Below are positions 7,659 to 23,820 of a stretch of 58,488 nt of DNA, piece after piece. This stretch comes from Rhodospirillaceae bacterium. GTDB taxonomy: Bacteria > Pseudomonadota > Alphaproteobacteria > GCA-2731375. The stretch is from NCBI GenBank assembly GCA_018660265.1, contig JABJKS010000038.1, positions 1-58,488 of the forward strand, in the 5' to 3' direction. Under the pieces are notes generated by a model that worked only from the letters and a program-made list of their open reading frames with translations, made no database searches and was not told where the DNA came from. The first letter of the stretch is position 1. Each line of letters opens with the position of its first letter. The position numbers and the translations under genes were made by a program.

Positions 7659-7735
7659 GGGCCTGTAGCTCAGTTGGTTAGAGCCGGCCGCTCATAACGG
7701 TCTGGTCGCTGGTTCGAGTCCAGCCGGGCCCACCA
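7659..7735 (+). tRNA. tRNA with anticodon CAT, probably tRNA-Ile2 (lysidine-modified)
   Basis: 77 nt with encoded CCA. Acceptor GGGCCTG pairs with CGGGCCC (one G-U), D arm GCTC/GAGC, anticodon stem GGCCG/CGGTC with loop CTCATAA, and T arm CTGGTTCGAGTCCAG. Anticodon CAT leaves tRNA-Met, initiator tRNA and tRNA-Ile2 as options. C4-G69 and C5-G68 in the acceptor stem and the TGGTCGCTGGTTC stretch match known tRNA-Ile2 rather than elongator tRNA-Met, and the paired 1-72 end excludes the initiator. If so, TilS would convert C34 to lysidine to read AUA. Confidence 0.85.
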
Positions 7736-7763
7736 CCTCCTTCTCTGTTTCCCATATGACGCG

Positions 7764-7782
7764 AAGCACCCTCAGGGTGCTT
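7764..7782. terminator. Short perfect hairpin after the tRNA
   Basis: AAGCACCCT-C-AGGGTGCTT is a 9-bp palindrome 28 nt beyond the tRNA. It may define the tRNA 3' trailer or end the convergent TPR-gene transcript. There is no T-run. Confidence 0.35.
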
Positions 7783-7838
7783 AAGTTGCTGGCGCTGACG
7801 ATAAAACCAGATGGCCGGGCCGAAGAAGCTAATCTGTT

Positions 7839-9059
7839 TTATTTCAACTTCGCTCGCAGTTGTGTCAAGCGGCGTGTGGTGATCTTTACATCAGATTGAA
7901 ACTGCAAATGACTGGGAAACCGATCGGCGAGCGACTGTGCTATGGGCAAGCTGTTTTCGTACTCCACTATAGCCGCCGCAATATCACCACGAGCTTCTTC
8001 AAGATCGCCGACCTTTTCATAGGAGACCGACAGATCGCGCTGCCAGCCGGCGTGCTTTGGGTCGGCATCAGCCAGGCGCTCGGCAATAACCAACGCGGCG
8101 CGGTAGCTTTGCAGGGCCGCTGAAAGGTCGCCCTGGTCCTTCAGCACGTTGGCGACATTATCATAGGAGACCGACAGATCGCGCTGCCAGCCGGCGTGCT
8201 TTGGGTCGGCATCAGCCAGGCGCTCTCTGATGACCAACGCGGCGCGGTAGCTTTGCAGGGCCGCTGAAAGGTCGCCCTGGTCCTTCAGCACGTTGGCGAT
8301 CCCGTCCAAAAGGACAGCGCGATTCCGCTTTTCAGATTCCGGCAGGCGGGCCAGCGCGTCCCTGTAGGCTCTCCACGCATCGGAAAGCGCACCAGCGCGT
8401 TGGTGGAGACGACCAAGATAAATTGCGTCCCAGGGGTCGGATTGATCGAGCTGGACGATTTTTTCGTACGCGTTCAGTGCTCGCGCCGTGTCAACCGGGT
8501 AGGCCAAGCGTCCTATGCGCCGCCATTGCGCCACATTTTCGACCGCCGCGGCAAAGGCTAAATCAGACAAAAGCTGCAAGCCGCCGTCGAGGTCATCTTC
8601 TGCAATCATGGCCAGCGCGCGGCGTTCGTCGGCGTCGCCTTCTTCAATTGTCTCACGCAGTGCTTCGCGCGTGTTGCGCTTGGTTTGAGCGTCAGCCTGG
8701 GTCTCTTTGAGGCCCGCCGATTTCATCAACACTGTGAATGCACGCTGTTCGAAATGGGATTCAAGTTCGCGCAATTGCGCAAGGCGCTCGGGGCTGAGTT
8801 GGTCTTCCCGACCTTTAAGGTATTCTAAGAGTGCCAGCAGATTAGTTTCGTCTGGCGGGGCTTCCGCCTTTCGGCAGAAATTTACCGCTTCCTTCTGGCC
8901 GGCAAGTGCTGCCACGTCGCAGAGAAAAAGGTCCCCTTTATTGCGGACAACGTCATACCAACCGAGGAAAGCGACCAGTAACGTCGCAACAACCGTAGCC
9001 TTGCCCCAATGCCGCGCAATCCTACTTTGATTTTTCTGTCCAGTAATTTTGTTTGCCAC
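7839..9059 (-). CDS. Membrane-anchored TPR-repeat protein
   Basis: A 406-residue protein with one N-terminal membrane segment (about residues 20-38, ATVVATLLVAFLGWYDVV); the rest is probably periplasmic. The C-terminal half has TPR-type helical repeats, including two almost identical 48-residue units (VANVLKDQGDLSAALQSYRA, then ALVI, ERLADADPKHAGWQRDLSVS) and a diverged third. Such repeats occur in large TPR proteins of marine bacteria, often with enzymatic domains, none of which is present. GTG 9059 is favoured by an AAGGGGGGG Shine-Dalgarno run 4 nt upstream. Function unknown; probably a protein-interaction scaffold. Confidence 0.75.
   Translation of the reverse strand: MANKITGQKNQSRIARHWGKATVVATLLVAFLGWYDVVRNKGDLFLCDVAALAGQKEAVNFCRKAEAPPDETNLLALLEYLKGREDQLSPERLAQLRELESHFEQRAFTVLMKSAGLKETQADAQTKRNTREALRETIEEGDADERRALAMIAEDDLDGGLQLLSDLAFAAAVENVAQWRRIGRLAYPVDTARALNAYEKIVQLDQSDPWDAIYLGRLHQRAGALSDAWRAYRDALARLPESEKRNRAVLLDGIANVLKDQGDLSAALQSYRAALVIRERLADADPKHAGWQRDLSVSYDNVANVLKDQGDLSAALQSYRAALVIAERLADADPKHAGWQRDLSVSYEKVGDLEEARGDIAAAIVEYENSLPIAQSLADRFPSHLQFQSDVKITTRRLTQLRAKLK
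8021..8308 (-). repeat. 144-bp tandem duplication inside the TPR gene
   Basis: 8021-8164 and 8165-8308 are consecutive copies with a 144-bp period (48 codons). They are near-identical over about 130 bp, differing mainly in a few bases around the codons preceding ERLADADPK. This indicates recent expansion of the TPR array. Confidence 0.85.
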
Positions 9060-9269
9060 GGCACCCCCCCTTAGGCGCTTTGGTCATCCCTTGGGTTGCG
9101 TTGATCCAAAGTCAACGTGCAAAGAACAGACATTAAATATCCAATCAGTTGAAACGCCCCATTGTCAAGCCGAAGTGAAGTAGGGTCGGTTTGGGGTTAT
9201 GAGTAAAAAAACTGAATGCTGACAATTGCATTGGTGGTCAGACTCACTAACGACGTGCAATTTCCATAC
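9060..9269. other. Intergenic region upstream of the TPR gene
   Basis: About 210 bp with no ORF that looks real. It contains the Shine-Dalgarno region of the TPR gene (minus strand) at its left end and ends at the duplicated segment starting near 9270. I see no clear promoter. Confidence 0.4.
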
Positions 9270-9474
9270 GACCGGGAACGGCCTTTAATTGTTCCGGGCA
9301 TTCGATCCAGCGGATCGTAAAGTCCATAAAATCACCCGTTTTCAAGAAAGTCGCCGTAGCCGCCAAAACGATATTTATCCGGATGGCGCTGAATAAAGTG
9401 CAGCAGGTGCTCCAATTGGCGCTGGTTGTGGGAATTAAAAAGTTTTGGGTGGCCGATCAGGACGAAGGGGACAG
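9270..9474 (-). repeat. Copy A of a ~205-bp direct repeat (other copy 13761-13966)
   Basis: Strongly similar, gap-poor match to 13761-13966 in the same orientation, including identical stretches such as CGCCGTAGCCGCCAAAACGA. It covers the 3' end and downstream flank of the deacetylase-like gene. Confidence 0.9.
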
Positions 9475-9559
9475 CCGTCTCGCAGCGAGCGGGCAAGACA
9501 CCGTCTTCCTTGAGCCTTAACGCTGTTTTGGCCAATATGTCCGGCCTTGAAGGCGGCAA
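9332..9559 (-). pseudogene. Truncated 3' fragment of the deacetylase-like gene
   Basis: The last ~45 residues (PFVLIGHPKLFNSHNQRQLE, then HLLHFIQRHPDKYRFGGYGD) are almost identical to the C-terminus of the intact gene at 13824-14885. The preceding ~28 codons, starting at an in-frame ATG (9559), have no counterpart there. The metal-site N-terminal domain is absent. It is best read as a relic of a segmental duplication or of recombination, not a working gene. Confidence 0.8.
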
Positions 9560-9629
9560 CTTTTCATGGACAGAATACCTTTTAGAATATCCCGCGTTCG
9601 ACCAGACATGGATAACTGGCAGATGACGT

Positions 9630-12173
9630 TCAAGGCTGGCGGTTGCGCAGGAAATTCGCGGGGGCTGCGGAATAAGTACTCAATGTCGTCAATAAACCAA
9701 CAACCAGCGTTACGAAAATCGCCACCACGGCCAGCGCGATGCTACCGGTTCCCGATACGCTCACACTACCAAGGCCAGCCGCGCTCGTGACACCGTAGGC
9801 GACGCTTAGTCCCAACGGCACCGCGGTCAGAGCCACCAGTGTGCCCAGGTATAAAAACTCCATCGCCAACTGGCCGAGCAACTGCCGCCGGCTCGCGCCA
9901 AGCACTTTGCACAATACGGTTTCGTTGGTGCGTTCTCCAAGCCCCTGAAGCACACTGCCCGCGAGCACCACCAAGGCCGCCATCCCGCACATCACCGCGG
10001 CCGCTTTCAATCCCGCCACGATAGCATCCAAAGCAGTGGCCAGCGAACGCAGTACGTCCACCACGCGGATCAAGGGCATGTCTGGAAAGCGGTTTTTGAC
10101 GAATGCCTCCAGTGTTGCCTCCTCGCCGCTTTTCGCTTTCAAGGACGCAGCAAGGGTATAGGGAATACCCGTGAACGTGGCCGGCGTGGCGATGATGGGA
10201 AAGTCCAGATCCAACCCCGTCCAATCCACGTTATGAAAATTCAAAATCAAACCGGTGCGGACTTGCCCGCCAACATTCAGGGTGATCGTATCGCCCAGAG
10301 CAAGGCCCAGATTTTTAGCCACCTCCGCGTCCATTGAATAACCGGGACCTTCTGATTGACGATCACCCCACCGCACAGCGTCGGGAAGTTTTGCCGCGAA
10401 CGACACCCCGCGATCGCCGCGGATAACCCAATTTAGGGATCTTGGAATTCTGAGGTCGCGCACTGCGACGCCGTTGATGGCCTGCACGCGGGCGTGCAGA
10501 AAGGGCATGATGCGCTGGCGCTCTACGATCCCGGACGCCGCCAGTTCCACGCCAAGCCGTGTCGCCATGTCGGGCTTGATCGAAAATGCAACCAGGTCCG
10601 GTGCGCTGTGTGGCAGGGTCTTTTGTACGTGGCGGTTGGCAGCACCGCCGATGGCGTCCAACGCCACCAATAATGTGAGGGTCAGGCCTAACGCCATCAC
10701 CACGGGACCGGTCGGCGCCCCCGCCCGATGCAAGTTGCCAAGGGCCAGACGCAAGTTGGCACCTTTGCCTTTGGCCAAAGCCTTGGCCAAGCGCGACAGG
10801 CCAAGGCCTAGGGCATAATAAAATGCCGCCAATGCCAATGCACCGATCAGGAACCCTACGGTCAACACGGGCATGGGCGAAACCCAAAACACCAGCATGA
10901 CAAGCGCCAACAAGATTATGCCTGCGCCGAGCCAAACCTTTACACCCGGCTTCCCCGGTGGATGCGTGATCGGTTTGCGCAGCAGTATCCGGGGGTTCAT
11001 ATCGTGCACCCCCATTAACGGCCACCAGGCAAACAGGGCTGCCACCAAAATGCCGAACAGCCCCGCCGCCAACATTGGTTTTATACCGGGGGTAGTTTCT
11101 AACGCGAAGGGCAATTGATCCGCCAACACGGAGGTGATTATGGCGGGACCAAACGCACCCAGACCAACCCCTGAAACGGCACCAATAGAGGCTGCTGCCA
11201 GGACTTCGAGCCCGATGGCCATGGTGATGACGCGGCGCGGTGATCCTATGGATTTCAAGATCGCAATGATCATCATCTTCTTCGCCACGTGCGCACGAAC
11301 CGCCCCGGAAATGCCGCTTCCCCCTACCAGCATTACGCCCAGGCCGATAAACAGCAGCAACACATTCGCCATGGCCAAGGTACGCTCCACCCCTGGCACG
11401 CCGTCATGGGCATTGACCATGCGCCAACCCGATTGCGGAGAGAATTGATCAATACGCGCCAAGGCCGCCCTGGCATCAACCCGTCCAGCGGATTTTGGTG
11501 GTAACTTCACACGGGTATAATAATAAACCTCCGCTCCGTAGTCGGTAACGCCGGTAGCGGGAAAGCTTTCGCTCAATACCATGATACGCGGGCCCAAGGT
11601 AAAGGCACGAAAAGCGCGATCCGGTTCAACAACAAGTGTGCCACGTAATTGATACCGGGCACGGCCAATTTGAAAGCTGTCTCCCGGTTTCAGGTCCAAG
11701 GCGTCGAACAACGCCGGATCTGCGACCGCACCATACAGGCCTGCGTGTTGATCCAGGGTTTGATAAAGGTTGGACGTGGGTAGAGTTTCGACAGCGCCGT
11801 AAAGTGGGTACTGCTGGTCCACGCCTTTGAGCTCAACCAGCAACGGCACGCCTTGTGCTCGACCATTTCTGACCGCGCGGGCCATGGGGCGTAGTTCGGT
11901 GGAAATGCTGACGTCGCCTTCACGGCGGATAATGGCAAGTTCGGCGTCGCTGGGGGGACGATGAAACAAGCGCAGGCTCAAATCGCCACCTATCGATTCC
12001 AGCGCGCCCCGGCGTGCGCCATCGACGAGGCTTTGCGACGTTGTTCCCAGCAGTGCCACAGCCGCAGCCCCGACGAAGATCCCCGCCACCAATAACCACA
12101 AACTACGCGCGCCACCACGCATGTCCCGCACCGCTATGCGTGCCGCAAGGGCGATGTCGTTAAAAAGCGTCAT
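9630..12173 (-). CDS. FtsX/YbbP-like ABC transporter permease
   Basis: An 847-residue membrane protein with the double FtsX/MacB permease organisation of YbbP. It has an N-terminal membrane helix (WLLVAGIFVGAAAVALLG) and a large periplasmic domain. A block of helices follows near residues 260-400, then more helices, a second periplasmic region and a C-terminal FtsX block (AALVVLAGSVLQGLGERTNE, then VLCKVLGASRRQLLGQLAME). YbbAP-type systems are thought to move lipid or hydrophobic compounds across the envelope. ATG 12173 is chosen because GGAGG lies 6 nt upstream; the frame opens further to 12230. No ATPase gene of the YbbA/LolD type is adjacent, which is unusual. The gene lies inside the segment bracketed by the 205-bp direct repeats. 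Confidence 0.88.
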   Translation of the reverse strand: MTLFNDIALAARIAVRDMRGGARSLWLLVAGIFVGAAAVALLGTTSQSLVDGARRGALESIGGDLSLRLFHRPPSDAELAIIRREGDVSISTELRPMARAVRNGRAQGVPLLVELKGVDQQYPLYGAVETLPTSNLYQTLDQHAGLYGAVADPALFDALDLKPGDSFQIGRARYQLRGTLVVEPDRAFRAFTLGPRIMVLSESFPATGVTDYGAEVYYYTRVKLPPKSAGRVDARAALARIDQFSPQSGWRMVNAHDGVPGVERTLAMANVLLLFIGLGVMLVGGSGISGAVRAHVAKKMMIIAILKSIGSPRRVITMAIGLEVLAAASIGAVSGVGLGAFGPAIITSVLADQLPFALETTPGIKPMLAAGLFGILVAALFAWWPLMGVHDMNPRILLRKPITHPPGKPGVKVWLGAGIILLALVMLVFWVSPMPVLTVGFLIGALALAAFYYALGLGLSRLAKALAKGKGANLRLALGNLHRAGAPTGPVVMALGLTLTLLVALDAIGGAANRHVQKTLPHSAPDLVAFSIKPDMATRLGVELAASGIVERQRIMPFLHARVQAINGVAVRDLRIPRSLNWVIRGDRGVSFAAKLPDAVRWGDRQSEGPGYSMDAEVAKNLGLALGDTITLNVGGQVRTGLILNFHNVDWTGLDLDFPIIATPATFTGIPYTLAASLKAKSGEEATLEAFVKNRFPDMPLIRVVDVLRSLATALDAIVAGLKAAAVMCGMAALVVLAGSVLQGLGERTNETVLCKVLGASRRQLLGQLAMEFLYLGTLVALTAVPLGLSVAYGVTSAAGLGSVSVSGTGSIALAVVAIFVTLVVGLLTTLSTYSAAPANFLRNRQP

Positions 12174-12379
12174 ATATCCCTCCGGCATCCTGTCGAAACT
12201 TACGTCGGTCAAGATGCTGCAACACTTCAAGGCTGTCCAGGCTGATGTCCTGAAGGGAGGGGAGAATATGGAATTCCATCACCTATTGCACCCGACGGGG
12301 GAAACTGGGAGCCGAGTTTGCTCCAGACGACGCCCGCCACCTCCTCTTTTTATTCCAGGAAAACTGCAGGGTTGCCGGG

Positions 12380-13384
12380 TCAATCCCAATCCATGTTCAG
12401 GACAGCCGCGCCATCGAATTTGCCCGTGCGCAGGTCATCGAGGGCCCGGTTTGCCTCGGCCAAAGAATAGATGTGGGTTGTCGTCCTAATGGGGACCTGT
12501 GGTGCTACATCAAGGAAGGCGATAGCGTCTTGCCGCGTAAGATTGGCGACCGAGCGGATGGTTCGTTCCCCCCACAGGATTTCGTACGGAAACGAAGGAA
12601 TGTCGGTCATATGTATCCCGGCGCAAATCACCGTGCCGCCTTTGCATACCGCAGCAAGTGCCGTTGGCAACAGCGTCCCGGCGGGCGCAAAGATGATCGC
12701 AGCGTCCAATTCGTGGGGCGGTTTTTGCTCACTGCTGCCCGCCCAGACAGCGCCAAGCGCACGGGCAAAGGCTTGCCCCTTTGTATCGCCTGACTTGGTA
12801 AAGGCCAGAACCTCCCTGCCTTCATGGCAGGCAAGTTGTGCGATAATGTGGGCAGCGGCACCAAAGCCGTATAGCCCGATGCGGCGGGCGTGGCGCACCA
12901 TGTTGTAGGCGCGAAAGCCGATCAAGCCAGCGCACATCAAGGGCGCGGCTTCTACGTCACCATAGGCGTCGGGGACAGGAAATGCATAGGCTTCGTCCGC
13001 GACCATGAATTCGGCAAAGCCACCGTCCAAGGAATAGCCAGTGAATTGTGCGCGGTCGCAAAGGTTTTCAGCCCCATCGCGGCAATACCGGCAATTGCCG
13101 CAGGTTCTGCCAAGCCATGGCACGCCGACGCGATCATGCATCTTCATATTGGTGACGGCGGAACCGGTTTGATCAATATATCCGATCACTTCATGTCCGG
13201 GGATCAATGGCAATTTCGCCTCCGTCAAATCCCCATCAACCACATGCAGATCGGTGCGGCAAACCGCGCAGGCTGTAATTTTGATAAGAACCTCATTGGA
13301 TCCGGGGGCGGGACGCTTGACCTCTCTCATCTGCAAGGGCAGGCCGGGTGCTTCGAGCACCATCGCGCGCATGGTATCTGCCAT
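12380..13384 (-). CDS. Zinc-dependent alcohol dehydrogenase (AdhA-like MDR family)
   Basis: A 334-residue medium-chain dehydrogenase. The catalytic zinc site is CAVCRTDLH (Cys and His at about 38-44) and GHEVIGYI (the following His/Glu). The structural zinc loop is CGNCRYCRDGAENLC with four Cys. The Rossmann region is weaker than usual (IGLYGFGAAAHIIAQLA). Members oxidise alcohols or reduce aldehydes with NAD(P); the substrate is not evident. ATG at 13384, with an alternative ATG at 13372. It is upstream of the ABC permease on the same strand but separated by about 200 bp, so a shared operon is uncertain. Confidence 0.9.
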   Translation of the reverse strand: MADTMRAMVLEAPGLPLQMREVKRPAPGSNEVLIKITACAVCRTDLHVVDGDLTEAKLPLIPGHEVIGYIDQTGSAVTNMKMHDRVGVPWLGRTCGNCRYCRDGAENLCDRAQFTGYSLDGGFAEFMVADEAYAFPVPDAYGDVEAAPLMCAGLIGFRAYNMVRHARRIGLYGFGAAAHIIAQLACHEGREVLAFTKSGDTKGQAFARALGAVWAGSSEQKPPHELDAAIIFAPAGTLLPTALAAVCKGGTVICAGIHMTDIPSFPYEILWGERTIRSVANLTRQDAIAFLDVAPQVPIRTTTHIYSLAEANRALDDLRTGKFDGAAVLNMDWD

Positions 13385-13823
13385 AGGCTATTTCCCGTTT
13401 TCGCCAGACTAAGAAACGCAAATGCAAAATGATTTGGATGATCATAACGGTGATTGCCGGACTGCGATATTCACTTTATTACCGCACCTTGGTATAAGTC
13501 GCGGTGCTAATTTTGTCGGCCAATCTGAATATTGTTGAGTAGATGTCTCATCCCTTTCCCAACAACGAACTCGAACGCTTGGCGGCTCTTGAAACATATG
13601 GCGACACCAAGTTAGATATTGATATCCGAAAAAACCTTCAACGTTGTCAATGAACACTTCGAAATAGCGTTCGGCGAGGAAATCGATACAGCCAAGAAAA
13701 ATGAGCCGTATTCGGTGCAATATTCTAGACGGTGGAAAATAGCCCAGCGATCAGGAACAGGACCGGGAACGACATCTAATTGTTTCGGGGCATTCGATCC
13801 AGAAGTTCATAACGTCCGTAAAA
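13385..13823. other. Gap between the dehydrogenase and the deacetylase-like gene
   Basis: Holds a possible gene remnant (13543-13653) and copy B of the direct repeat from 13761. A 92-codon minus-strand frame (13442-13720) shows no recognisable feature. I see no clear promoter. Confidence 0.4.
13543..13653 (+). pseudogene. Possible N-terminal remnant of a GAF-type signalling protein
   Basis: A 36-codon frame beginning MSHPFPNNELERLAALETYG resembles the start of many GAF-domain sensor proteins (N-E-x-x-R-L-A-A-L then Y-x-x-L-D-T). It runs into a stop after 36 codons, and no GAF body follows in any frame that I can recognise. It may be a broken gene left at the edge of the duplicated segment, or a chance resemblance. 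Confidence 0.3.
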
Positions 13824-13966
13824 TCAACCGTTTTTAAGAAAATCGCCGTAGCCGCCAAAACGATATTTATCCGGATGGCGCTGGATAAAGTGCAGCAGGT
13901 GCTCCAATTGCCGTTGGTTGTGGGAATTGAAAAGTTTTGGGTGGCCGATCAGGACGAAGGGGACAG
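13761..13966 (-). repeat. Copy B of the ~205-bp direct repeat (other copy 9270-9474)
   Basis: Covers the 3' end of the deacetylase-like gene and about 60 bp downstream of it. With copy A it brackets about 4.3 kb carrying the ABC permease and the alcohol dehydrogenase. Confidence 0.9.
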
Positions 13967-14885
13967 GGGTTTCGTGGTTGCCGTATTTTCCATGGGCCCG
14001 TTCCAAGGCGGCGATGAGTTGGCGGGCGGAGGCTTGGTTGAAGTCTGCTTTCCAGGCGTGTTTTTGCAATAGTAATTGTTTGAGTTTTGCCGCGATAGAT
14101 TGGCCCGACAGGCGATCGCCGTTGGTTTTATGCGCTGGGGCGGCAAGCTGGTGCCGGTAGGATTGATAGAGACGGAATAATCTGTTGAGGCTTAGAAAGG
14201 CCGTGATCCAACGATGTTCGGCGTAGATGGGAAATTCCGTCAGGGGGCTGGTCGCGTCGCGGTGACAGAAATTCTTTTGGTCCGCCGGCCAGGGCAGGGT
14301 TTCGCTCTCGGCGTCAGTATAGTCAAAATTTACCAGGCCATGGCTTTGGCCATACTTGAACACTGAACTGTCCGCCCGCATGCCGCATGCGATCAGGGCA
14401 TCGGCGATATTGCCCGATGGCATGACCGACAGATTGCAGGCCCGAAAGACCGAGGCGCGATAGCCAGGATGCGCGGCGGCCATTAATTGTTCCAGGAAGT
14501 GTTTCGATCCTGCAATCATATCCCTGGTGCGTTGGGCGGATAATGCTGCGAGGTCGTATTCCGACCAATCCTGCATCCAGCCCCGCTGGCGGCTTTCGGC
14601 ATGGTCGTAAGAGGGATGAATATGCAATTCGACCTCGTGCCCCGCGCCGTATGCACTGTGGAGTTGCTGGACGATTTTGTCATAGTGAAAGCGGTCGAGG
14701 CCGGTATCGTCTTTGTAGGTTTTGAATTTCGCGATTTCAGCCGCTTCGGCAAAGATCGATAATTTTGCGCCGAATTTGTTCAGCTGCGAGATCAACCGAT
14801 CCGTCGGCGCCACCATCAATTCAAGCGGGTCGCCTTCACCGTTGCCATGAATTTCATAATCCAATGAAAAGATGACTGTTATCAC
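13824..14885 (-). CDS. Polysaccharide-deacetylase-like protein
   Basis: 353 residues. The N-terminus VITVIFSLDYEIHGNGEG fits the first NodB-type motif (catalytic and metal-binding Asp). ELHIHPSYDHAE (about residues 87-98) gives the His-x-x-x-His-like metal motif on the next strand. The C-terminus (VPFVLIGHPKLFNSHNQ) resembles the end of the barrel in this superfamily. The family removes acyl groups from polysaccharide or peptidoglycan sugars; the substrate is unknown. No signal peptide is seen, so action may be cytoplasmic on nucleotide- or lipid-linked sugars. The start is GTG 14885. It neighbours an EPS-type sugar transferase and c-di-GMP genes, consistent with surface glycan synthesis. Its 3' end is duplicated at 9270-9474. 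Confidence 0.6.
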   Translation of the reverse strand: MITVIFSLDYEIHGNGEGDPLELMVAPTDRLISQLNKFGAKLSIFAEAAEIAKFKTYKDDTGLDRFHYDKIVQQLHSAYGAGHEVELHIHPSYDHAESRQRGWMQDWSEYDLAALSAQRTRDMIAGSKHFLEQLMAAAHPGYRASVFRACNLSVMPSGNIADALIACGMRADSSVFKYGQSHGLVNFDYTDAESETLPWPADQKNFCHRDATSPLTEFPIYAEHRWITAFLSLNRLFRLYQSYRHQLAAPAHKTNGDRLSGQSIAAKLKQLLLQKHAWKADFNQASARQLIAALERAHGKYGNHETPVPFVLIGHPKLFNSHNQRQLEHLLHFIQRHPDKYRFGGYGDFLKNG

Positions 14886-14976
14886 GTGTCTGCCTACGAC
14901 CGGGAAATTTAAGGGAACGATCCATCATCGCAACGTGGTTTTGCCGGAGCAACCCTTCATTCGTAAATGGCGCCGA

Positions 14977-15019
14977 GATTTAGTCATGGGATTTAGTCGT
15001 GGGATTTAGTCGAGGGATT
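14977..15019. repeat. Three 13-bp tandem repeats
   Basis: GATTTAGTCATGG, GATTTAGTCGTGG and GATTTAGTCGAGG follow each other (14977-15015), then GATT. They lie between the stop of the GGDEF/EAL gene and the start of the deacetylase-like gene, both on the minus strand. Confidence 0.8.
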
Positions 15020-15044
15020 GAACTGTGGATATTAAGCGGGGGAA

Positions 15045-17297
15045 TTACCCGGCAGCATTCATGGCATAAAATTCGACGGCCGGGACCGGGCGTCCGAAAT
15101 AATAGCCTTGCGCGCTGCGGCAGCCCATATTGCGCAAACAATCCGCCTGTTCGGCTTCCTCCACGCCCTCGGCCACCACGTTCAGTCCAAGGCTTTGGCC
15201 CAGGTTGACGATGGCGGATGCGATGGCGGCATCTTCGGGGTTGGTCAAAATATCCTGAACAAATGATCGGTCGATCTTTAAGACCTGGACGGGGAATTTC
15301 TTCAAATAAGAGAGCGATGAAAAGCCGGTACCGAAATCATCAATGGCCAGACTTACGCCGATTTGACGTATCGCGGCCATCGTCTTGATAGCCTTGTCCA
15401 TATCGGTCATCACGGCACTTTCCGTGATCTCCAATTCCAGATGTTGGGGGGGGAGGCGCGTTTCCAGCAAGACCGCCTTGACCTTCTCCAACAGATCATC
15501 GCTCATGAATTCCACAGCCGACAGATTGACAGATACCTGTATCGCTGGATGGCCGGCATCCATCCAACTGCGGGCCTGGGCACAGGCGGTCCGTAAAACC
15601 CAATGACCGATCTCGCGGATCATGCCGTTGCTTTCCGCCAGGGGAATGAATTCAAAAGGCGGGATATTGCCCCGGGTCGGATGTTGCCAACGCAGCAAGG
15701 CTTCGGCCCCGAATACGGCCCCATCCTCAAGATGTAGTTGAGGTTGATATGCCAGGGAAAACGCGTTTTGATCAATCGCCTGCCGTAGATCTTCTTCCAT
15801 CGCCTTGCGCCGGCGCATTTCTTCGTCCATGCCGGCATTAAAGTATTGAAAGCAATTCCGCCCCATGGATTTCGCGTGATAGAGCGCCATATCGGCGAAC
15901 TTGATTAACCGATCAGTCCTATCCGTATCATCGGGAACAAGGGCGACGCCAATAGAGGCGGAGGTTCGGATCCGCTCTCCGTCAATCAAAAAAGGTTCTG
16001 AGATTAAATTGATGATCCGCTGGGCCATGGGCTGGACCAGGCCACTATCTTCAAGGTTGGAATAAACGATTGCGAATTCATCTCCCCCCAGGCGCGCTAC
16101 GGTGTCTGACTGGCGAACGCATGTTTGCAGTCTTGCCGCGACCTGGCGCAATAATTGATCGCCTATGGGGTGGCCCAAGGTGTCATTGACGTCCTTAAAA
16201 TTGTCCAGATCAAGGAACAGCAAAGCGGTTTGCTTTTTGGTTCTTAGGGTCATGGCACTGGCCTGATCCAGACGATCCTGAAAAAGGGACCGATTGGGCA
16301 ACCCGGTCAAACTGTCATGATGGGCGAGGTGCTGGATGATGGCATCCGACTTTTTACGCTCGGATATATCCATGAGGCTCAACAGCACGCTGCCATCCTG
16401 CTTGTCGTGGGGAGAAAAAGGCGAGCCGGCGATAAACAGATGCTTTTCGATACCACTTACAGGGCCAATGATCCGGCATTCCACTTCTCGTGGCGCGCCC
16501 CTACGCCAGGCCTGTTGCGGGGCTTCCAGGCGGGAGAGTTCGGCAGGTACGACCAGGTCTTCAAGATTGATATTTGTTGTGTCGGCCTGTTCGTCCACTT
16601 CCAAAATATCGGTGGCCGTGGAATTGAGATAAATCGTCCGGCCATCCGGGCCAAGATGCCAGATGCCTATGGGGCTGTGCTCGGACAGACGCCGAAAACG
16701 CACTTCGCTGTCCTGTGCCGATTGCAGAGCAACTTCCAACTGTTGCTTGGCCTGGGCCAGTTCATCGGCTATCCGCTTATTCGCCTGGCTTTGCGCCTGG
16801 GCCTGTTCCTTGGCTTCGCGTTGTTGCAGGATGCCCCGTATCAACTCATCATTACTTTCCCGCAGCGTACCTTCCGTTCGCTTGCGGGTTTGGCTGTAGC
16901 GAACCATTCGTCGCATGAGCGCCGGCGTCAACTCATCAAGTGCGATACAATCCGCCATGCCGTCGACGATGATATCGGCCTCTATCGCATGCGATGTCGC
17001 GGAGGTAACCAGAATAAAAGGCACCCTTGCATTGACCGTCAGGGCTTCACGGATCGTATTGAGGCCATTCTCACCGGTGCCCAGGTCGAGAAAAATCGCA
17101 AAGTCATAGTCGTGGATTGCCAGGTCGATTAGGGCATCTTCACCGGCATTGGTCCAGGCAAACTCTCCATCCACGCCAAAACCTTCGCGCAAAAGGTTAC
17201 CCATCTGCGCGTTTTCCCGGTCACAAAAATCAACGATCAAGACCCGCGATGGTCGATCCATTTGTGGCTCAAGAGCTGATGCTAATGTCTTATTCAC
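15045..17297 (-). CDS. Receiver-PAS-GGDEF-EAL c-di-GMP signalling protein
   Basis: 750 residues. A response-regulator-like receiver domain covers about 18-130 (RVLIVDFCD, then FLDLGTGENG with a candidate phosphoacceptor Asp). A Gln/Ala-rich coiled coil covers about 145-205 and a PAS domain about 205-320 (FRRLSEHSPIGIWHLGPDG). The GGDEF domain has an intact RLGGDEF at about 400 and begins HHDSLTGLPNRSLF. The EAL domain has EALLRWQHPTRG at about 529 and DDFGTGFSSLSYLKKFP. Both catalytic motifs look intact, so it could make or degrade c-di-GMP; which dominates is not predictable. It probably takes its phosphate from a separate kinase, since no histidine kinase is adjacent. A PilZ effector lies 3 kb away, across a divergent sugar transferase. 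Confidence 0.93.
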   Translation of the reverse strand: MNKTLASALEPQMDRPSRVLIVDFCDRENAQMGNLLREGFGVDGEFAWTNAGEDALIDLAIHDYDFAIFLDLGTGENGLNTIREALTVNARVPFILVTSATSHAIEADIIVDGMADCIALDELTPALMRRMVRYSQTRKRTEGTLRESNDELIRGILQQREAKEQAQAQSQANKRIADELAQAKQQLEVALQSAQDSEVRFRRLSEHSPIGIWHLGPDGRTIYLNSTATDILEVDEQADTTNINLEDLVVPAELSRLEAPQQAWRRGAPREVECRIIGPVSGIEKHLFIAGSPFSPHDKQDGSVLLSLMDISERKKSDAIIQHLAHHDSLTGLPNRSLFQDRLDQASAMTLRTKKQTALLFLDLDNFKDVNDTLGHPIGDQLLRQVAARLQTCVRQSDTVARLGGDEFAIVYSNLEDSGLVQPMAQRIINLISEPFLIDGERIRTSASIGVALVPDDTDRTDRLIKFADMALYHAKSMGRNCFQYFNAGMDEEMRRRKAMEEDLRQAIDQNAFSLAYQPQLHLEDGAVFGAEALLRWQHPTRGNIPPFEFIPLAESNGMIREIGHWVLRTACAQARSWMDAGHPAIQVSVNLSAVEFMSDDLLEKVKAVLLETRLPPQHLELEITESAVMTDMDKAIKTMAAIRQIGVSLAIDDFGTGFSSLSYLKKFPVQVLKIDRSFVQDILTNPEDAAIASAIVNLGQSLGLNVVAEGVEEAEQADCLRNMGCRSAQGYYFGRPVPAVEFYAMNAAG

Positions 17298-17767
17298 GTC
17301 CCCTCACAGGAATGTCGTCCGCTTGCGAGGTATTATTATCAAAAAATAATAATCAATTGGTAAACGAGAATTAGCGGAAACGAACCTGTATGAAACCGTA
17401 TCGCAACGCTTTACACTTTCTGTTGACCTGCGCCGGGGCTATTGCAGTTGTCTATCGGTTTCCCGCCAATCGCTTATGCTGCAATGGTTTTACCCAATCA
17501 ACTATTCCATCGACGTCGCTAACGCCCTATTCTGCGTAACTGCTGTAGATGCGTCTGCGAGAATTCTGCCAGAGATCGCCAATCAATTGGTTAGGGCAAT
17601 TTTCGATCAATTGGAATTGCTTGCACGATCTAAGTGATTGTATTAATTGCAATATTCTTAAGTATCCGAACACATGGTTCTCATTGGGTGTTCAAAGGCC
17701 GGTATGGAGCATTGAGATGTTTGATTTGGATAGCGTGCTTGCCTGCAGGAAGGCCCGGTAGACAGGC
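17298..17767. other. 470-bp divergent regulatory region
   Basis: Lies between the GGDEF/EAL gene (minus) and the sugar transferase (plus). It contains AT-rich runs and three copies of ATCAATTGG (17352-17360, 17582-17590, 17606-17614), each centred on the palindrome CAATTG. A 70-codon ORF (17549-17761) has no recognisable protein character. This is the likely site of control of EPS initiation. Confidence 0.45.
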
Positions 17768-19222
17768 ATGATCTATCCACGGATCCGCATTTTCCGGCAC
17801 TATATTTCGCGTGCGTCCCTTCTTTTGGTACTGATTGAAAGCGCTATGCTGTTGCTGTTGGCGCATGTGTTGTTGGCCACGCAAACCAGCGCAGTCGCCA
17901 GTGCACAGGCCGGCGGCATTGCCGGGTTATCCTGGTTTGCCGTGGCCATCGCCTTGATTTGCGTGGTTATTTTCCTGTCCCTCGGATTATATAACCGTAC
18001 CATAATTCCCAACATTCAGGTCATGATGGTGCGGTTCTGTATTGGCCTGGCCATCGTCGCAATCGTCACATATTTGATGATCAAGGCATATTTGGGCGTC
18101 ATTCCGGCGGAAAAATATCCACCCGATCAATATTACTATCTGCCCACGGCGATCATGCTGGGCGTGGCGGCTTTGTTGTGTACCAGATTACTATTTCTTT
18201 ACGTCTCTGATTTGGGTGTGCTCAGACAGCGGATTGTCATGATCGGCTCTCGCGAACTGGCCAATACATTGCAAAGTTCGATGATTGGTGATCAGGCATT
18301 AGGTTTTGAAATTGGTGCCGTGATGGACCCCGACATTGATATCACCGATCGTGCGTTCGAAACCGGTCGGGGACCAAATTCGGTGCCCATCATCCCACTT
18401 GAAACCGATCCGGCCGCGATGTCGGCAGTTCTTGTCCAGTTCGAGGCGGATGAGTTGGTTATCGCTCTTGATGACGATGCGTTGTTACCCACCGACGCCT
18501 TGCTGGATTGCAAATTGCGGGGCATCCGGGTGACCGAATACTTGAGTTTTGTTGAACGTGAAATGGGTCGCATCGACCTGGCGCGTCTGGATCCCAAATG
18601 GTTCATATTCTCTGACGGGTTCCGCGAAGGCATTGTTGTGAATATAGTTCAGCGCAGCCTCGATATCCTGGTCAGCTCGGCCATTGTTATTTTTGCCGCA
18701 CCAATCATTGGCATCATTGCGCTATTGATAAAGCTGGACAGCAAGGGTGGTGCGTTTTACCGGCAGGAGCGAACGGGGCGGCATGGCGATGTTTTTACCT
18801 TGCTGAAATTTCGCAGTATGACCGTGGTTGATACCAGCGGCGTTGGGCCGCGATGGGCTGAGGTGGATGATGATCGGATTACTGGTATGGGGTATTTCAT
18901 ACGGCAAACCCGGATTGATGAAATACCGCAAATTTTCAATGTTTTGCGGGGCGACATGAGTATTATAGGTCCGCGTCCCGAGCGGCCCTTTTTTGTTAAT
19001 TCACTGTCCCAGCATATCCCTCACTATAAGGAGCGTCATAGGGTCAGGCCTGGTATTACCGGTTGGGCGCAAATCAATTATCCCTATGGTGCCTCCGTCG
19101 AGGACGCCCGGGAAAGACTGGCCTATGATCTCTACTATGTGAAAAATCGCAGCTTGTTTCTTGATATTGTCATTTTGCTGCAAACCGTTCGGGTCGTCCT
19201 TTGGCCCTCAGGCCAGCATTAA
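17768..19222 (+). CDS. EpsB-like polyprenyl sugar-phosphate transferase (PEP-CTERM/exosortase-associated type)
   Basis: 484 residues. Four N-terminal membrane segments lie within about residues 17-147, followed by a CoA-binding/Rossmann-like middle part. A further membrane helix at about 298-322 precedes the C-terminal bacterial sugar transferase domain (FYRQERTGRHGDVFTLLKFR, SIIGPRPERP, RHRVRPGITGWAQ). Such enzymes load the first sugar phosphate onto undecaprenyl phosphate to start exopolysaccharide repeat units. The stretch FVEREMGRIDLARLDPKW then FIFSDGFR is typical of the subfamily found in genomes with exosortase and PEP-CTERM proteins. One such protein is encoded 3 kb downstream (21836-22576). 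No glycosyltransferase operon follows. Confidence 0.9.
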   Translation: MIYPRIRIFRHYISRASLLLVLIESAMLLLLAHVLLATQTSAVASAQAGGIAGLSWFAVAIALICVVIFLSLGLYNRTIIPNIQVMMVRFCIGLAIVAIVTYLMIKAYLGVIPAEKYPPDQYYYLPTAIMLGVAALLCTRLLFLYVSDLGVLRQRIVMIGSRELANTLQSSMIGDQALGFEIGAVMDPDIDITDRAFETGRGPNSVPIIPLETDPAAMSAVLVQFEADELVIALDDDALLPTDALLDCKLRGIRVTEYLSFVEREMGRIDLARLDPKWFIFSDGFREGIVVNIVQRSLDILVSSAIVIFAAPIIGIIALLIKLDSKGGAFYRQERTGRHGDVFTLLKFRSMTVVDTSGVGPRWAEVDDDRITGMGYFIRQTRIDEIPQIFNVLRGDMSIIGPRPERPFFVNSLSQHIPHYKERHRVRPGITGWAQINYPYGASVEDARERLAYDLYYVKNRSLFLDIVILLQTVRVVLWPSGQH

Positions 19223-19248
19223 TCGATCTCGTGCTAAACGGAACAGTG

Positions 19249-19608
19249 CTAATTCGAACGTTCGTTGATGGCCAGCCAATCGCCGGCTGCCGTGCGATGG
19301 TCTATATCTGCTGAATTGGCATAGATATGCGCCTGGCTCAAATCTTCCACGTCCGCGGCGCCCAACTGCTCGATGGTTTGTTCGACGAATTTGGGAAAAA
19401 CATCGCAAAAAACTTCGAAATCTGTGAAGTCATCCCGCAATTGATCGTGCAGCTGCATGAGGGCATCCATGCGCCCCGTCCAATCCATCGGGCGCAGTAA
19501 GTCAATGCAGCGGCCAACCCATTCTTCAGCCAATTGTTCTGGTGACAAGCGGCTGTCATGGGTGCCGTCTGGGGCAGTATTGGGTGGCAATTCGCTGGAT
19601 GAATTCAT
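19249..19608 (-). CDS. Hypothetical acidic protein
   Basis: 119 residues, acidic, no membrane segment and no family that I recognise. It begins MNSSSELPPNTAPDG, and the body reads SPEQLAEEWVGRCIDLLRPM, then DFEVFCDVFPKFVEQTIEQL, suggesting a small helical protein. ATG 19608 has no strong Shine-Dalgarno sequence. It is convergent with the sugar transferase gene (26 nt between stops). Amino-acid composition is coding-like, but the call rests on frame length alone. Confidence 0.5.
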   Translation of the reverse strand: MNSSSELPPNTAPDGTHDSRLSPEQLAEEWVGRCIDLLRPMDWTGRMDALMQLHDQLRDDFTDFEVFCDVFPKFVEQTIEQLGAADVEDLSQAHIYANSADIDHRTAAGDWLAINERSN

Positions 19609-19889
19609 CGGATATCGGTCTTCTTACACCATCTACGGATCTCGCCCCTGTCATTCATAACCATTCACTCAACGACTAAAGTGGAATGGCAAAAAACAAC
19701 AGTCCTCAACAGCGCGCCTTAGTGTTGCATATATTTAAGAATTGAGCAAAGCGAACAGAAGGAGAATTCGTCATACCATTGACCGGCCATTGTAACCGGT
19801 CATTGTTGATGTTCTTGGGTAAAAACTTGCAAATGGGATTCTATTAGCCATAATTAATTTGTAAGACGAAATGATTCGAGGGCTGGGGC
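19609..19889. other. Intergenic region with a small inverted repeat
   Basis: No gene recognised. TGACCGG (19780-19786) and CCGGTCA (19796-19802) form a 7-bp inverted repeat about 90 bp before the small membrane ORF, with a CATTG direct repeat flanking. It may be an operator. Confidence 0.3.
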
Positions 19890-20048
19890 ATGGGTGATCG
19901 CGACGCGTTCGTAGAACGGCAAGGCTTCCGCGACGTCCGAGACCACACGAATGATCCCCTATCACCACGCATGGCAGTTCTGGTTTGGTTACTGCTTGGC
20001 GTGTTGTGTTGGTCAGGCGTCATCGGCCTGTTCATGCTGATTTTATAA
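19890..20048 (+). CDS. Small single-pass membrane protein, 52 aa
   Basis: ATG at 19890 preceded by GAGGG with 7-nt spacing; stop at 20046. The protein has a charged N-terminus (MGDRDAFVERQGFRDVRDHT) and one C-terminal hydrophobic helix (VLVWLLLGVLCWSGVIGLFM). It matches no family that I know. The tail-anchor-like layout, good ribosome binding site and position in an EPS/c-di-GMP region make it a credible small protein. Its 3' end overlaps that of a second small ORF on the other strand by 6 nt. Confidence 0.45.
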   Translation: MGDRDAFVERQGFRDVRDHTNDPLSPRMAVLVWLLLGVLCWSGVIGLFMLIL

Positions 20049-20150
20049 TACCGCACCGCCCAGCGTGCGCCCACCCACGGGGCCTTGGTCGGCGGTCAAA
20101 TGGTTCACAATATCTCGGAAGCGCTCTGGTCCCATTAATCCTGAATTCAT
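20043..20150 (-). CDS. Tiny ORF, 35 aa, with strong ribosome binding site
   Basis: Begins MNSGLMGPERFRDIVNHLTA and ends GGRTLGGAVL. ATG at 20150 has GGAGG with 5-nt spacing, the best kind of support for so short a frame. No family recognised and no membrane segment. It is tail-to-tail with the 52-aa ORF, their stops overlapping. It could be a real small protein or a degraded gene end. Confidence 0.35.
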   Translation of the reverse strand: MNSGLMGPERFRDIVNHLTADQGPVGGRTLGGAVL

Positions 20151-20297
20151 CTGGACCTCCGGATTGGCAAGTTCCAAGGGCAGATGGTGCCGCCTCTGCG
20201 GGATCTCGTTGTTAACCATTTACTAAAAAATTGACCGTAGAATTCTGATCTCCAGGTCCAGGCTCTGTATAGCCGGCCAACGGATAGGACGGAAAAC

Positions 20298-20693
20298 ATG
20301 GTTACGCCTTTGCGGCGCCTGCTCACAGTAGCCAAGAATATTGTCACTGGTTCTCAGGACAGCGGCTTTGAGGCCCTGCGCGATTTTGCCCGCGCCGATG
20401 TGAATGCTGAGGTAAGGGTCTTTCTTGGTGGAGAAACCCTGAACTGCAATCTCCGCGATGTTTCAATATCTGGTGCCTTGTTGGTGCCCGATTGCGGTAT
20501 GGAAAAGGGCGCAGTTTTTGAATTGGAATTAGACAGTATTCCCGGTCGTGTAGAAGCGGAGGTGATGCGCTTGACGGACGCGGGTGCGGGGATCCGCTTT
20601 GCCAATCCCAGCATCGGGGTTTTGGTCGCTGGTTGGAGCCGGGGCACCTCAAGCGGTGCAATGGCCGTCGGATCCGGTGGTAACCGGCGTTGA
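20298..20693 (+). CDS. PilZ-domain protein
   Basis: 131 residues. The core reads ARADVNAEVRVFLGGETLNC, then NLRDVSISGALL, giving the D-x-S-x-x-G PilZ motif at about residues 54-59. The upstream R-x-x-x-R motif is degenerate (Arg32, then no Arg at the fifth position), so c-di-GMP binding is likely weakened or altered. PilZ proteins transmit c-di-GMP signals to motility or polysaccharide machinery. ATG 20298 follows AGGACGGA. The methyltransferase-like gene starts 10 nt after its stop, indicating one operon. Confidence 0.78.
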   Translation: MVTPLRRLLTVAKNIVTGSQDSGFEALRDFARADVNAEVRVFLGGETLNCNLRDVSISGALLVPDCGMEKGAVFELELDSIPGRVEAEVMRLTDAGAGIRFANPSIGVLVAGWSRGTSSGAMAVGSGGNRR

Positions 20694-22959: not shown

Positions 22960-23820
22960 TCACAGGCCCATCTGCTGCAAAATGGCGGGCAGCACGGGGC
23001 CTGCTTCATCGCCCATGGCGGCTGTCATATCGAAATGGTCGGCACCGGGGACATCCATGAATTGGGCGTTGATGCCGTTGGCCTGGCATAGATCCACATA
23101 GGCGCGGGTTTGTTTGATCCATTCCGTGGTCTCGGCCCCGCCTACGGGGACGAGGAGGGGGAGGTCGCGCCGGGGTAGGTTGAGCATGGGGGAGACGGCC
23201 CCGATCATATCCGGGGTCAGGCGAACGGCGTCGTTGACTGTGATGCCCATGACCGGGGTGGGGTCATAGACGCCGGTCAACAATGCCGCGCCCTTGATGA
23301 TGTCGTCCGGCTGGCCATCGGCGGCCCAGTCGCGGGCCAACAGCATGGCGCCCAGGTGCGCGCCGGCGGAATTGCCGGAGATAAAAATCTGCTCCGGATC
23401 ACCGCCCCATTCGGCGATGTTTTCCCTGGTCCAGATCAGGGCGCGGACGGTTTCGGCCATGATCTCGGGCAGGCTGGCGTTGGGGCATAGGTCATAATTG
23501 ATAATCACCACACAGGCCCCGGCGGCTGTGAATGGTTCGGCCAGAAAGCTGACGTCGGATTTATCCTGGGCCCGCCAATAACCGCCGTGGATATAGAACT
23601 GTACCGGCGCATTTTCGGCCTCTGCCGGATAGACGTCCAATACCTCTAACGGTCCGGGGCCATAACGCAGATCATAGACGCCTTCGATACGGCAACGCGC
23701 CTCGGCTGAGGCGATGACACGGGAATCGATTTTGGGCTGATGGTCAGGCACCGCCTGGCGGGGGTTAAACTGCCGCTCAAAATCCTCAACCGAATAGCCG
23801 CCGCGATCAATCTCCGTCAT
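22960..23820 (-). CDS. Alpha/beta hydrolase, arylformamidase-like esterase
   Basis: 286 residues with the hormone-sensitive-lipase/kynurenine-formamidase pattern: oxyanion motif FYIHGGYWR, nucleophile elbow ISGNSAGAHLG (Ser), a late Asp/Glu region around GAETTEWIKQ and the catalytic His in VPGADHFDM. Known relatives hydrolyse N-formylkynurenine or other small esters. It sits directly after gcdH on the same strand (25-nt gap). Both arylformamidase and glutaryl-CoA dehydrogenase act in tryptophan breakdown, so a catabolic pairing is plausible, but the substrate is unproven. Confidence 0.82.
   Translation of the reverse strand: MTEIDRGGYSVEDFERQFNPRQAVPDHQPKIDSRVIASAEARCRIEGVYDLRYGPGPLEVLDVYPAEAENAPVQFYIHGGYWRAQDKSDVSFLAEPFTAAGACVVIINYDLCPNASLPEIMAETVRALIWTRENIAEWGGDPEQIFISGNSAGAHLGAMLLARDWAADGQPDDIIKGAALLTGVYDPTPVMGITVNDAVRLTPDMIGAVSPMLNLPRRDLPLLVPVGGAETTEWIKQTRAYVDLCQANGINAQFMDVPGADHFDMTAAMGDEAGPVLPAILQQMGL

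Follow-up and report, generated by a model that had tools for sequence, protein, structure and literature searches.

The region beside a tRNA-Met gene of a Rhodospirillaceae bacterium carries the end of a polysaccharide-deacetylase-like gene twice: once as part of the complete gene and once as a truncated remnant, with an ABC permease and an alcohol dehydrogenase between the two. The best fit to these data, to which we give a probability of roughly 0.55, is that one of two diverged copies of the gene was truncated late, during gene turnover; the leftover gene end is most likely an ordinary scar of that turnover. The whole stretch of DNA analyzed, a contig of 58,488 nucleotides, is referred to here as the window, and all positions are window positions.

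A direct repeat carrying the end of a gene

The features on which the analysis centers are as follows:

7659-7735, + strand: tRNA-Met (CAT), which lies behind rpoD and forms one anchor of the variable region
7736-20583, no strand: variable region, from tRNA-Met to the methyltransferase-like gene at 20584
7839-9059, − strand: TPR-repeat protein gene, with a 59% relative in one of 14 other family genomes (G008)
9270-9482, − strand: repeat copy A, the last 47 codons and stop plus ∼62 bases beyond
9483-9629, − strand: open stretch joined to copy A on its upstream side, with no likeness to the deacetylase family
9630-12230, − strand: YbbP-like FtsX-family ABC permease; DNA homology to its relative in G002 covers 9642-12172
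12380-13384, − strand: alcohol dehydrogenase of the zinc-binding type (TIGR02822, 346 bits; cut-off 283.5)
13385-13760, no strand: stretch without a recognized gene, low in GC (44%), which holds 13543-13653 and 13474-13498
13761-13974, − strand: repeat copy B, where the complete gene ends, together with its 3′ flank
13824-14885, − strand: complete polysaccharide-deacetylase-like gene, 353 amino acids

Alignment confirms what an earlier note on this DNA had claimed, namely a direct repeat with both copies in the same orientation: in the best local alignment 9270-9482 pairs with 13761-13974. The copies are ∼90% alike, with 16 mismatches in 184 aligned bases, four in another 29 and a single 1-base gap, so "near-identical", as the note had it, was an overstatement. 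They are spaced 4492 bases start to start, and the longest exact run common to both is 41 bases. Repeat finding over the whole window returned two direct families of at least 30 bases, namely copies A and B and, inside the TPR gene, a tandem repeat; other exact 20-base words recur only between near neighbors. The tandem repeat consists of two 144-base units (8009-8296), 95% alike, and is perhaps a recent repeat expansion.

Each copy comprises the last 47 residues and the stop codon of the deacetylase-like gene followed by ∼62 bases of 3′ sequence, and the complete gene is found only at 13824-14885, as had been described. The note had further proposed that part of the copy A reading frame derives from elsewhere. 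This holds insofar as the 5′ part of the frame bears no likeness, in an alignment judged by eye, to the matching part of 38 homologues (all but one of the 39 related loci discussed below; L071, a 32-residue match, was left out). As to where that part came from, no match was found: a DNA search of 11 genus genomes with the copy A region returned just the two known copies, and the protein of the frame had neither a Pfam nor a plasmid match.

The complete gene

The product of the complete gene is predicted to be a deacetylase-like enzyme of the type that modifies sugar polymers. A structure model (pLDDT 87.5), built on the window protein together with sequences from 26 of the 39 loci, has polysaccharide deacetylases as its top matches among solved structures in the PDB (top E 2.9e-08, TM 0.51/0.61), and D9, H88, H90 and H315 are invariant in the 27 aligned sequences. 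The predicted fold thus resembles the NodB/CE4-like fold of polysaccharide deacetylases at modest TM-scores. In contrast, the gene falls below the Pfam and NCBIfam cut-offs (PF01522, 13.3 bits against 23.1; TIGR03006, 14.8 against 276.2), and its relatives, encoded at 39 loci in many phyla in a collection of 84,980 species, are 26–50% identical over the best segment. Neighboring genes at the six of these 39 loci that were inspected by eye resemble polysaccharide genes.

At E≤0.001 the gene was absent from all other genomes searched, comprising 41 relatives and 385 genomes of the class (a sample drawn from a larger group). Besides copy A, its own genome holds only a distant paralogue (28%, contig C91), and a plasmid search returned one match, 31% identical over 68% of the protein. 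Copy A keeps only residues 307-353, which make up the closing strand-helix part of the model; D9, H88 and H90, all invariant in the alignment, are missing from this copy. Judged against the model, its protein would be unlikely to work as an enzyme.

Divergence of the two copies

The 48 codons common to the two copies (stop included) differ by six synonymous and two non-synonymous changes, at 31.5 and 112.5 sites, respectively, giving pS 0.19 and pN 0.018. The binomial probability of this bias is 0.002, a value resting on eight differences; the test treats all sites alike, and transition bias would weaken it. In the 3′ flank 10 of 62 bases differ, with one gap, which is approximately the level at silent sites. 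Had copy A been dead since the split, amino-acid changes would be expected to have accumulated in it. The changes are instead mostly silent, which suggests that both copies were probably coding during most of their divergence. Two sequences with such a history are better understood as two genes or alleles than as products of a target duplication, and the pattern favors a pair of diverged copies, either paralogues or imported alleles, of which one may have been truncated late.

Genes between the copies

The contents of the segment agree in part with the earlier note. The permease is confirmed: PF02687 is above its cut-off and NF041854 matches with an E-value of 3.7e-62, albeit at 210 bits against a cut-off of 999. 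That it stands without an ATPase also holds, there being no ATPase motif frame beside it; indeed a simple search for LSGGQ-like motifs found no ABC ATPase frame anywhere in the window, the one match to the motif being in a 64-residue frame at 52.1 kb. A 35% identical permease paralogue on contig C105 does have an adjoining ATPase frame. The alcohol dehydrogenase, above the cut-off of its profile, is likewise confirmed. A broken GAF gene, by contrast with these, finds no support. The frame in question (13543-13653) has 36 residues, the first ∼20 of which may resemble GAF proteins; it has no Pfam match at E≤5, and in 11 genus genomes it matched itself and one chance-level sequence (E 0.789).

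Relatives of the two genes are found at other places in the genus. The permease has a 76% identical relative in one of ten congeners (G002), and among the window genes tested the permease alone matched within the 19 kb around that relative. Dehydrogenase relatives, 71–76% identical, are present in five of the ten. In G010, G002 and G007 the dehydrogenase has as neighbors a J-domain gene and one that is FtsH-like, both named by eye; in G005 and G001 its surroundings match neither the J-domain place nor each other. Relatives of both genes lie on other contigs than the rpoD-tRNA locus of their genomes, and in the five congeners bearing the dehydrogenase the best permease match and the dehydrogenase are on different contigs. 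DNA homology stops at the gene ends in four of four comparisons (the permease with G002; the dehydrogenase with G010, G002 and G007). A move of the dehydrogenase from the J-domain place was also considered: the best J-domain match in its own genome is 48% identical, and none of six other genes of the J-domain place was detected within 16 kb around it, so the comparison did not demonstrate such a move.

Base composition and codon usage, suggested in the earlier note as a check on the segment, do not set its genes apart. The permease and dehydrogenase have a GC content of 58–59%, as against 57–58% for dnaG and rpoD; GC is lower in the repeat copies (49–52%) and in 13385-13760. The codon score of both genes is 0.08, equal to that of other genes of the variable region, with nine reference genes ranging from 0.08 to 0.26. 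Codon usage of the segment genes is therefore at the low end of the range in the window, yet inside it, and with GC also within range composition does not mark a foreign insert.

A variable region beside tRNA-Met

The segment had been regarded as accessory, and this is borne out: in both congeners whose fetched DNA spans the two anchors (G004 and G010) the content of the region differs from that of the window. The limits given for it (9270-13966) are too narrow. The region that varies is larger, running from ∼7.8 to 20.5 kb and including both repeat copies and the complete deacetylase-like gene, and from ∼20.6 kb onward there is a block that is kept in congeners. Between tRNA-Met and the gene at 22960, or its relative, lie 15.2 kb in the window; the corresponding figures are 6.8 kb (G010) and 2.9 kb (G004), and both of these congeners carry other genes there. 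None of six cargo genes from G004, G010, G007 and G001 is matched in the window. The content is not wholly different: an EAL gene (15045-17297) has a 55% relative in G001 near the same kept block and a 66% relative in G003, whose contig there gave no good match to any other gene of the kept block.

Two further features of the region were observed in passing. At 17768-19222 there is a sugar transferase above the cut-off of TIGR03013 (XrtA/PEP-CTERM system glycosyltransferase family). In G004 the methyltransferase-like gene (20584) is matched by its last 83 residues only (L087, 6060-6308), and this is perhaps a further truncated gene, at the edge of the region.

A tyrosine integrase gene adjoins the 3′ end of this tRNA-Met in three (G005, G008 and G006, the last partial, at a contig end) of the seven congeners that were read at least partly beyond the tRNA (G002, with only 365 bases, G004, G005, G006, G007, G008 and G010; the contig of G001 ends at the tRNA). 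The other four have no match to an integrase in the DNA read. Given three integrases among seven congeners, the tRNA-Met beside rpoD is very probably an integrase target in this genus. Like tRNA-associated genomic islands and integration hotspots, the region is bounded on one side by a tRNA gene, with a cargo that differs between kept anchors in two congeners and tyrosine integrases at the same tRNA in three others. It differs from them in that the window has neither an integrase match (tblastn with the G005 and G008 integrases) nor a second tRNA 3′ end (no other match to the last 14–25 bases, allowing one mismatch below 18 bases and three otherwise), and could contain at most a decayed island. 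In PMC5635113, many gene-transfer hotspots are described as having no recognizable mobile elements, and the region resembles hotspots so described: genes turn over at a fixed place and no mobile element is recognized in this genome. It adds one more documented example of gene turnover in a chromosomal region adjacent to a tRNA, in a genus with an integrase at tRNA-Met in three of the genomes read.

Origin of the truncated copy

We propose that the variable region once held two diverged deacetylase-like copies in the same orientation, the second being an old duplicate or an allele from a relative. Both would have been complete, and both would have remained coding sequences while most of the differences between them arose. 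Gene turnover would later have removed the 5′ part of the left copy, and the same turnover may have placed the permease and dehydrogenase between the copies; this order of events, and the link between truncation and gene arrival, we infer. The last 47 codons and the 3′ flank would have remained as a scar that is probably functionless. Consistent with this are the repeat itself, the silent bias of its differences, the other content of the region in two congeners, the integrases at the tRNA in three and the presence elsewhere of permease and dehydrogenase relatives. Against it, none of the 41 relatives and 385 class genomes has two complete copies or a complete left copy, the argument from selection is carried by only eight coding differences, and the integrases sit in congeners with none in the window.

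The earlier note had offered two explanations, of which a collapsed gene duplication fits better than the other, an insertion of 4.3 kb with duplication on the target side. An insertion, whether of a transposon-like kind or by an integrase element able to restore the 3′ terminus of a protein gene, would account for direct repeats flanking the segment on both sides at the end of a gene. It predicts copies that are near-identical, or else a copy A decaying neutrally, and is opposed by the ∼10% divergence and the mostly silent codon differences (p = 0.002). Moreover, profile searches recognized no recombinase or transposase among the proteins of the segment, the integrases of the congeners are unmatched in the window, and target duplications are usually far shorter than the repeat seen here. 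We consider such an insertion improbable.

The main rival, unlikely in our view but deserving of more serious consideration, is that homologous recombination, in the manner of a single crossover, joined a piece of DNA from a related bacterium to the resident gene. Along with the permease and the dehydrogenase, the imported piece would have brought the 3′ end of the donor's own diverged deacetylase gene, leaving a complete gene on one side and a truncated one on the other. Such an event would be expected to yield a complete copy and a truncated one in direct orientation, and it accounts for both the ∼10% divergence and the silent bias, because the donor and host genes would each have been under selection. 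However, no donor, circular form or recombination breakpoint was seen; composition is undecisive here, since DNA from a close donor would look alike. Misassembly, or the collapse of two loci, comes to mind because the genome is a draft of 121 contigs, and is very improbable: with ∼10% base differences and a longest shared run of 41 bases the copies are not one repeat read twice. We give the least credence of all to the idea that segments lacking a recombinase of their own become added at the 3′ end of the deacetylase-like gene, and that every one of them supplies a diverged copy of the gene end by which the gene stays complete.

One could take a leftover gene end of this kind for the trace of a discrete mobile element, and the pattern of silent change offers one way to distinguish the two.

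A dispersed palindromic element

The genome also contains a dispersed palindromic element of 198–265 bases, which has terminal inverted repeats (TTATACCAAGGTGCGGTAATA...) and inner hairpin-like repeats. As a boundary of the segment this element was rejected: the window has one lone end, at 13474-13498, and no second match. Other sites are L103, L110, L114, L115 and L119 in this genome and L138 (around 881-1143) in G002. A search of this genome for end-like sequences, allowing at most one mismatch, gave 21 matches as against none for the reversed control. Other lone ends of the element occur, and two of them seem, by eye, to follow a stop codon.
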